From: Kiritimatiellales bacterium
GTDB lineage: Bacteria > Verrucomicrobiota > Kiritimatiellia > Kiritimatiellales > Pontiellaceae
Direction of reading: 5' to 3'
Assembly: GCA_003230915.1 (NCBI GenBank)
Contig: QIHI01000049.1
Span: 1 to 32,136 of the forward strand
Length of the DNA: 32,136 nucleotides
Below are positions 14,145 to 16,782 of this stretch, piece by piece. The notes under the pieces were generated by a model. It had not been told where the DNA came from, searched no databases, and saw only the letters and a program-made list of their open reading frames with translations. Positions within the stretch are counted from its first letter, which is position 1, and each line of letters starts with the position of its first letter. The position numbers and the translations under genes are program-made.

Positions 14145-14888
14145 CTAATAAAACACCTTCCAGAGAAAGAGGCCGTGCGGCTGGGCGGTCTGCACCTTTG
14201 CGGTTCGCTTTCCGTGGTCAAGGATGTCAAGGGCGGCTTCAGGTTCTAGTCGTCCCATTCCAACATGGATTAGGAAGCCAGCGAGGCCACGCACCATTTT
14301 GTAAAGGAAGCCGTTCCCTTGTACCTCCAGCGTAATATCGGCCCCGTGTTTGCGAACATAAAATGAATGGATGGTGCGAATGGTACTTTTAATGGGAACC
14401 TTCCGATTGGCGGCGAACGGTGCAAAGTCGTGCTCGCCTACCAGCAGGGAGGCGGCAGTACGCATTTTTTCAATATCCAACGGTCGGCCTTCCTGCAGAC
14501 GGTAGAGTCGCTTCGTGGGTGGGACGATCAAACCGTTGTAAATGAAATAGCGGTATTCTTTGCCCACAGCACTGAAGCGTGCGTGGAAATCGGGGGAAGC
14601 CTGCTCCAAAGTCAAAATCCGAATGTCGCGATCGATCTGCGCATTGAGTCCGCGCTGGAAATATTTTGGATCGATTGGTTTTTCCAAGTCAAAATGCGCC
14701 ATCTGTGCACGGGCGTGTACCCCAGTGTCGGTGCGGCCAGACGATTCCAGACGAACATGTTTCAGGCTGGTCATCTCGGCGAGCAACCGTTCGATTTCCC
14801 CCTGCACCGTGCGGTGCCTAGGCTGCACCTGCCAGCCAGAATAGTTTGTGCCGTCGTAGGTAACCTTCATTTTATAGCGCGTGGACAT
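14145..14888 (-). CDS. truA: tRNA pseudouridine(38-40) synthase TruA
   Basis: Isomerises uridines 38-40 of the tRNA anticodon arm to pseudouridine. It has 247 aa with the standard domain content: KVTYDGTNYSGWQVQP at the start, the catalytic Asp54 in ESSGRTDTGVHARAQ, GKEYRYFIYNG, and the C-terminal FLYKMVRGLAGFLIHVG. The ATG taken here lies inside a longer reading frame that is continuous with the upstream cutA. No Shine-Dalgarno precedes it (the upstream bases are CATTCCTCGCCT), so translation probably depends on ribosomes coming from cutA, either by reinitiation or as a real fusion protein. An alternative start is the ATG at Met7. Confidence 0.93.
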   Translation of the reverse strand: MSTRYKMKVTYDGTNYSGWQVQPRHRTVQGEIERLLAEMTSLKHVRLESSGRTDTGVHARAQMAHFDLEKPIDPKYFQRGLNAQIDRDIRILTLEQASPDFHARFSAVGKEYRYFIYNGLIVPPTKRLYRLQEGRPLDIEKMRTAASLLVGEHDFAPFAANRKVPIKSTIRTIHSFYVRKHGADITLEVQGNGFLYKMVRGLAGFLIHVGMGRLEPEAALDILDHGKRTAKVQTAQPHGLFLWKVFY

Positions 14889-15236
14889 AGGCGAGGAATG
14901 TAGAACAACGGCTAAATTCAGGCAACGGATATCAGGTCGTTTCTCGCTTGATCCACTATTACCGGCGGCAATGGGTAGGCAGACGATGGCAGGACAATCG
15001 TAGCTGTGGAGTTGTTTAATTCGGTCGATGAGTTCCGCTTTCCGAGCCTTGGAGGTTTTGAGAACAAGCGCAACTTCTTCGCTTTCGCAAACCTCCCCCT
15101 CCCACCAGTAGATTGATTTGATCGCACCGAGCAGGTTCGCACAAGCAGCGAGTCGTTCTTCGACCACCGACCGAGCAATCAACTTCGCCTCGGATTCATT
15201 CGCCGCTGTCACATAAATAAAAAAAATATCCATCAT
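14889..15236 (-). CDS. cutA: CutA1-like protein, 3' end frameshifted and open into truA
   Basis: CutA1 is a small trimeric ferredoxin-fold protein linked to divalent metal tolerance. Residues 1-93 match well: FIYVTAANESEAKLIARSVV, EERLAACANLL, SIYWWEGEV, ALVLKTSK and SYDCPAIVCLPIAAGN. The family then normally has a short x-x-Y-L-x-W-I-x-x-E tail. Here that tail (WIKRETT, then TGA at 14932-14934) exists but in another frame; only two bases separate AAT from TGG where about fifteen are expected. The translated frame instead reads SGSSEKRPDIRC and onward with no stop until the end of truA. It starts four bases after zwf. The true fold probably survives because the lost strand is terminal, but this is uncertain. 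A sequencing error is an alternative. Confidence 0.75.
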
Positions 15237-15240
15237 AAAA

Positions 15241-16782
15241 CTACTCGTTCCGCCAGTGGCCTTCCGCTCCGTGGAAGAGCCAATCAGCCTCGGGCATACC
15301 CCATGCATTGGGTGGATAAGCATACGGTTTAAGTTTTTCCAAATTCTCCAAAATCGGTTGCACAACGCGCCATTCAGCTTCAACTTCGTCGGAACGGGTG
15401 AAGAGTGTAGAGTCGCCGTGAAGAGTGTCGAGCAACAGACGTTCGTAGGCTTCGGGCAACGATTTGTTCCAAGTGCCAGAGTATGAAAAATCCATATTCA
15501 CATCTTCAACTACAAACCGCATACCCGGCCGCTTGGTGCCGACCTTGAGGAAGATGCCCTCGTCGGGCTGGATGCGGAAGATGAGCGTATTGGGTTTGAT
15601 GCCGGTGATATCGCACACATCCTCTTCGCACTCAACGTGCTGGAAAAGCTGAAGTGGCGGCACTTTGAATTGCACGGCGATTTCGGTGGCCTTTCTCGCC
15701 ATGCGCTTGCCGGTACGCAGGAAGATCGGTACACCGGCCCAGCGCCAATTGTCGATCTTCAACCGCATGGCCGCAAAGGTTTCAGTTTGTGAGTTGGAGT
15801 CAATGCGATCCTCTTCTCGATAGCCTTTAATGTGCACATTGCCTTTACTGATTCCTGCGCCATATTGCCCGCGACAGGCGGCATCGGAAATATCTTCGCG
15901 GATATCGAGTTTGGCGGCATTGAGCACCTTTACTTTTTCGTTGCGGATAGCTTCGGCGGAAAGATCGCCGGGCGGTTCCATCGTCACGAGGCAGAGAAGC
16001 TGCAGAATATGATTGGTGACCATGTCGCGAATCGCTCCATATTCATCGTAATAGCCACCCCGGCCGCTTTCCATGCCGACGGTTTCGGAGGCGGTGATCT
16101 GGATGTGGTCGACATAGCTACGGTTGAAGACCGGCTCGAAGATGGCATTAGCAAAGCGAAACGAAAGGATGTTTTGCACCGTCTCCTTGCCGAGGTAGTG
16201 GTCAATGCGATAGATCTGCGACTCGTCGAGATGGCGCAGTAGCGCAGCGTTCAACGCCATTGCGCTGGCGAGATCCTTGCCAAACGGCTTTTCGATCACT
16301 ACGCGTGTCCAGTGCTTGCTACTCGGAGGAGAAATTAGCCCAGATTGTTGCAGCGACTCCACCGCCACCTCAAATAACGATGGGATGATCGAAAGGTAGT
16401 AGAGCCGATTCTCGGGATAGGTTTCTACGTCTTCAAATTTTCCCTTCATCTGCATATACGTAGCGGAATTGGAAATATCACCCTTGTGGTAGCGAATATG
16501 CCCAACAAAATTCTGCACGGCTTTTTCGTCGGTTGGCAGGCGCGAGAACTCCTTGATCGAGTCGGCCACCATACCGCGAAATATTTCGTCGTCATAGTCC
16601 CGCCGAGCCACCCCGACAATGGTGAATGTTTCGGGCAGTAAACCTTGCGCATAGGCAACAAATAGTGCCGGGATCAGTTTGCGGTGCGTTAGATCGCCCG
16701 ATGCACCGAAAATTACGATGGTAATGGGATCACTCACACGACTTTCGCCAGTGGAGCCATCGCCTTGGATTTCTGTATTCAT
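15241..16782 (-). CDS. zwf: Glucose-6-phosphate 1-dehydrogenase
   Basis: Oxidises glucose-6-phosphate to 6-phosphogluconolactone with reduction of NADP, the entry to the oxidative pentose phosphate pathway. It has 513 aa, the typical length. The dinucleotide-binding motif is GASGDLTHRKL (26-36), EKPFGKD lies at 164-170, and the substrate-binding signature RIDHYLGKE at 192-200 includes the key His and Lys. The following FANAIFEPVFNR is also standard. AGGAA lies nine bases before the ATG. It heads an operon with cutA and truA. The next enzyme of the pathway, pgl, is encoded 5 kb away. Confidence 0.97.
   Translation of the reverse strand: MNTEIQGDGSTGESRVSDPITIVIFGASGDLTHRKLIPALFVAYAQGLLPETFTIVGVARRDYDDEIFRGMVADSIKEFSRLPTDEKAVQNFVGHIRYHKGDISNSATYMQMKGKFEDVETYPENRLYYLSIIPSLFEVAVESLQQSGLISPPSSKHWTRVVIEKPFGKDLASAMALNAALLRHLDESQIYRIDHYLGKETVQNILSFRFANAIFEPVFNRSYVDHIQITASETVGMESGRGGYYDEYGAIRDMVTNHILQLLCLVTMEPPGDLSAEAIRNEKVKVLNAAKLDIREDISDAACRGQYGAGISKGNVHIKGYREEDRIDSNSQTETFAAMRLKIDNWRWAGVPIFLRTGKRMARKATEIAVQFKVPPLQLFQHVECEEDVCDITGIKPNTLIFRIQPDEGIFLKVGTKRPGMRFVVEDVNMDFSYSGTWNKSLPEAYERLLLDTLHGDSTLFTRSDEVEAEWRVVQPILENLEKLKPYAYPPNAWGMPEADWLFHGAEGHWRNE

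Follow-up and report, generated by a model that had tools for sequence, protein, structure and literature searches.

An open cutA-truA reading frame in a draft Kiritimatiellales genome: fortuitous read-through after a probable recent frameshift deletion, or a slip in the assembly

In the draft genome of a Kiritimatiellales bacterium, cutA lacks a stop codon of its own and is read in frame into the adjacent truA, which raises the question of whether this locus encodes a CutA-TruA fusion protein, carries a recent lesion in cutA, or contains an assembly error. The window, i.e., the whole stretch of DNA analyzed (32,136 nucleotides), is contig C33 of a 1.9-Mb genome in 143 contigs, whose relatives are Pontiella sulfatireligans, other Pontiellaceae and Kiritimatiellales genomes. 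Genomes placed in one genus here span about 1.1 to 8.7 Mb.

Organization of the cutA-truA reading frame

The minus-strand frame at 14145-15233 is open throughout, from the cutA ATG to the truA stop codon, and encodes 362 amino acid residues; an alternative in-frame cutA ATG at 15236 adds one more Met (363 residues). The frame contains CutA residues 1-92 (14958-15233, minus strand), 23 codons (14889-14957, minus strand) and the whole TruA of 247 residues (14145-14888, minus strand). The CutA1 family match (Pfam PF03091, E value 2.9e-31) covers residues 5-93 of the fused frame and positions 2-90 of the 99 in the profile, and TruA is whole from residue 116. The last base of the cutA codons for LPIAAGN is 14958, and the first base of the truA ATG is 14888. 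The 23 codons between them encode the linker SGSSEKRPDIRCLNLAVVLHSSP, which corresponds to the shifted cutA tail followed by the old intergenic spacer. An earlier note on this DNA had described a CutA frame that is normal up to AGN, and a shifted frame without stop codon that joins truA in frame through a 23-residue linker. Both descriptions agree with our results, the frame being open from 15233 or 15236 to 14145 and the N being N92 when counted from 15233 (residue 93 in the note).

Directly upstream of cutA is zwf, which encodes a glucose-6-phosphate dehydrogenase (15241-16782, minus strand; TIGR00871). The distance from the zwf stop codon to the cutA ATG is 4-7 nt (window 15233-16782), and the zwf-cutA order is also found in several relatives.

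Comparison of the cutA tail with relatives

The window gene was compared with 29 other cutA genes (L003-L031), at genus, family and order level. In all 29 the tail G-N-x-x-F-(L/I)-x-W is intact and the gene ends in a stop codon of its own. In these relatives, the motif LP-x-x-x-G-N (with G-H, G-S or G-Y in a few of them) is followed by five codons for x-x-F-(L/I)-x, by W and later by the stop codon. The window gene has only AG after the G-N codons (14956-14957, minus strand), and then TGG ATC AAG CGA GAA ACG ACC TGA, which encodes WIKRETT and a stop codon in another frame (14932-14955, minus strand) and matches the W-I-x-x-E-T tail of the relatives. Since 15 bases are found between G-N and W in the relatives and two here, 13 bases are missing. 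This bears out the loss of about 13 bp that the earlier note had deduced from the out-of-frame tail and the two bases left in place of about 15. The distance between G-N and the truA ATG, which is 82 nt in L012, L014 and L019 against 69 nt in the window, may be an independent second sign of a 13-nt loss, although a weaker hint, as it ranges from 50 to 550 nt in the other relatives. A search of 28 genus genomes and the named-genome collection found no further assembly of this species, the nearest being 79% identical in DNA. No flanking repeat that could explain a slippage deletion is obvious at the site, as judged with the original bases lost.

Sequence comparisons reveal no clear decay in the remainder of cutA. 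The body motifs L-A-A-C-A-N, W-x-G and H-x-Y-x-x-P are present, and only four residues of the body are unseen in other members of the genus. According to pairwise NG86 estimates, which give a coarse test with dS near saturation, dN of the cutA body ranges between 0.11 and 0.15 to the five nearest relatives and between 0.10 and 0.19 among those relatives, and it averages 0.278 to the remaining genus members, at the top end of the 0.22-0.28 of the neighbors. Since the body is well conserved, the lesion would be either recent or not real. No second copy of cutA was found in the 143-contig genome. In a few genus genomes, such as G014 (94% complete), cutA was undetected, and the gene may therefore be dispensable in this group.

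Predicted state of CutA and TruA

Compared to the CutA1 family (PF03091, NF041095), residues 1-92 of the window protein keep the body positions and the gene has zwf and truA as neighbors, as in the relatives; however, the last ~9 profile positions, which include F/Y-L-x-W, are replaced by unrelated residues, and the protein has no stop codon of its own. Tertiary structures were modeled with AlphaFold2 as monomers, and the window model covers CutA and the linker only. For the intact relative L003, residues 92-101 are predicted with high confidence to form a C-terminal helix, whereas the window protein shows no such helix and its residues 94-115 have pLDDT values below 50, so that the linker is predicted to be disordered. 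The comparison with relatives and these models together show that F/Y-L-x-W is lost through the deletion and that the predicted C-terminal helix is disrupted. In the solved CutA1 structure of SIB1-CutA1, the tail aromatics Tyr98 and Trp101 are located at the trimer interface (PMC3004244); from their spacing, they were assigned to the tail F and W of the CutA studied here. On this basis we infer that the window protein would no longer form a stable trimer and that CutA function would be lost.

TruA, a tRNA pseudouridine(38-40) synthase (TIGR00071, PF01416), is complete in the window. Its sequence matches the NCBIfam model TIGR00071 over the whole length with 202 bits (cut-off 142.85), and the catalytic-aspartate motif GRTDxGVH is present as GRTDTGVHA and kept in the phmmer alignment to the TruA structures 2nqp and 1dj0. 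Furthermore, the truA start (MSTRYK) is the same as in the relatives. With a complete protein, the motif and the start of the relatives, TruA activity, and thus tRNA modification, is probably kept. It differs from the family in that in-frame reading from upstream cutA would add an N-terminal extension of 115 residues.

The earlier note had also pointed to the lack of a Shine-Dalgarno sequence before truA. This lack is real but says nothing about a fusion, because such a sequence is mostly absent before truA in intact relatives too and several genes elsewhere in the window lack one as well. A 16-mer, TCGATATTCGACATTC, closely precedes the truA ATG in L007 (1401-1416, minus strand), L009 (1860-1875, plus strand) and L017 (1896-1911, plus strand). 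It is the sole exact copy per genome in G008, G003 and G005, has further copies in G002 and G021 and is absent from the window genome. Its appearance suggests either a conserved leader element or a small repeat.

Origin of the joined frame

How often a deletion of this kind would leave an open in-frame junction was estimated in two ways. When a 69-nt stretch of the same composition was shuffled, 32% of the shuffled versions were open, against 49% of random 69-mers from the window; multiplied by 1/3 for the correct frame, these rates give about 11-16%. In addition, when the same 13-nt deletion was scripted in 14 relatives, an open in-frame fusion was obtained in one (L014), likewise with a linker of 23 codons. 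By chance, then, about 7-16% of such deletions would leave the junction open and in frame, and read-through into truA needs no selection.

Neither the fusion nor its linker was seen again in the genomes sampled from the phylum or among plasmid records. Among the matches listed, cutA was found in at least 166 of the 388 genomes of the phylum, and no other CutA-TruA fusion was seen among these 166 cutA-bearing genomes, in which part of the cutA frames were inspected. Nine loci with long cutA frames were fetched, and in all of them the extra length lies on the upstream side of cutA, in sequence that is unrelated or spurious, with TruA in none of the nine. None of the plasmid records matched the fusion over 80% of its length, and the papers searched mention no CutA-TruA fusion protein. 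In the sequences searched, CutA-TruA does not appear to be a recurrent architecture.

The explanation that we prefer, with a probability of roughly 0.62, is a recent frameshift deletion that damaged CutA and led to a fortuitous read-through, rather than an evolved bifunctional protein. Small out-of-frame deletions which skip a stop codon and fuse neighboring genes of an operon are a known kind of event, and the locus does not differ in kind from them: a small deletion bypasses the stop codon and joins adjacent frames, in a gene pair not found fused elsewhere here. A recent loss of 13 bp in the last cutA codons would have changed the frame so that the cutA stop codon is bypassed; the shifted frame, by chance without a stop codon in the short spacer, would then meet truA in frame. 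CutA would probably be damaged as a trimer through the loss of the F/Y-L-x-W segment, ribosomes translating cutA would run into truA rather than stopping about 40 nt before it, and TruA would be made from its ATG, which is still present, and perhaps additionally as a fused product carrying the N-terminal extension. The part of the earlier note that proposed a young deletion fits these results, as all relatives are intact and cutA shows no clear decay. The idea of a functional fusion is not supported, given a linker that is simply shifted tail plus spacer, the loss of the trimer-interface segment and the lack of a fusion in the other genomes searched.

The deletion itself is likely to be real. 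The main rival, less probable but to be taken seriously, is that the loss of 13 bases arose in assembly or consensus calling, or through the collapse of strain variants, and that cutA in the organism ends at a normal stop codon, with truA separate. This agrees with the draft state of the genome (143 contigs), with the intact genes of all relatives and with the lack of clear decay in the remaining cutA, as expected for a truly intact gene. However, the site lies mid-contig, and unbroken frames with matches to their families were found for about 20 further genes of the window, including polA, zwf, tig, clpP, clpX, aceE and nfo, so errors are not common here. Losses of 13 bp in non-repeated sequence are also unusual for short-read assemblies, which counts against an error if this genome was assembled from short reads.

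A functional, selected CutA-TruA fusion, in which, for instance, a PII-like CutA domain is coupled to tRNA pseudouridylation, is improbable. In its favor, the junction is open and exactly in frame, cutA lies next to truA in many genomes of the Pontiella group, and the cutA body looks constrained; however, an open in-frame junction arises by chance alone in about one in ten cases, the linker has the makeup of a shifted tail and is predicted to be disordered, the trimer-interface residues are gone, and the 166 cutA-bearing genomes of the phylum (matches listed) show no other example. This analysis found no positive evidence for a maintained fusion. It is likewise improbable that one Pontiella-group species expresses a ~40 kDa fusion in which a truncated PII-like CutA is tethered to TruA, changing its assembly or metal response.

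Programmed ribosomal frameshifting, which would restore the WIKRETT tail, was rejected and has almost no probability: the original tail and stop codon are still present in the other frame just past the junction, but the missing F-L-x residues cannot be recovered in this way, no slippery heptamer is seen at the junction, and such an arrangement is seen in no relative.

The most likely reading of the locus is therefore an ordinary one, in which a young frameshift deletion led to read-through by chance, or else the assembly slipped. In the case of a slip, it is a caution against calling a fusion gene from a single draft genome. If the deletion is real, the locus would be a snapshot of how a small deletion can destroy the tail of one gene and join it to its operon neighbor, and it would test whether CutA tolerates the loss of its trimer-interface segment.
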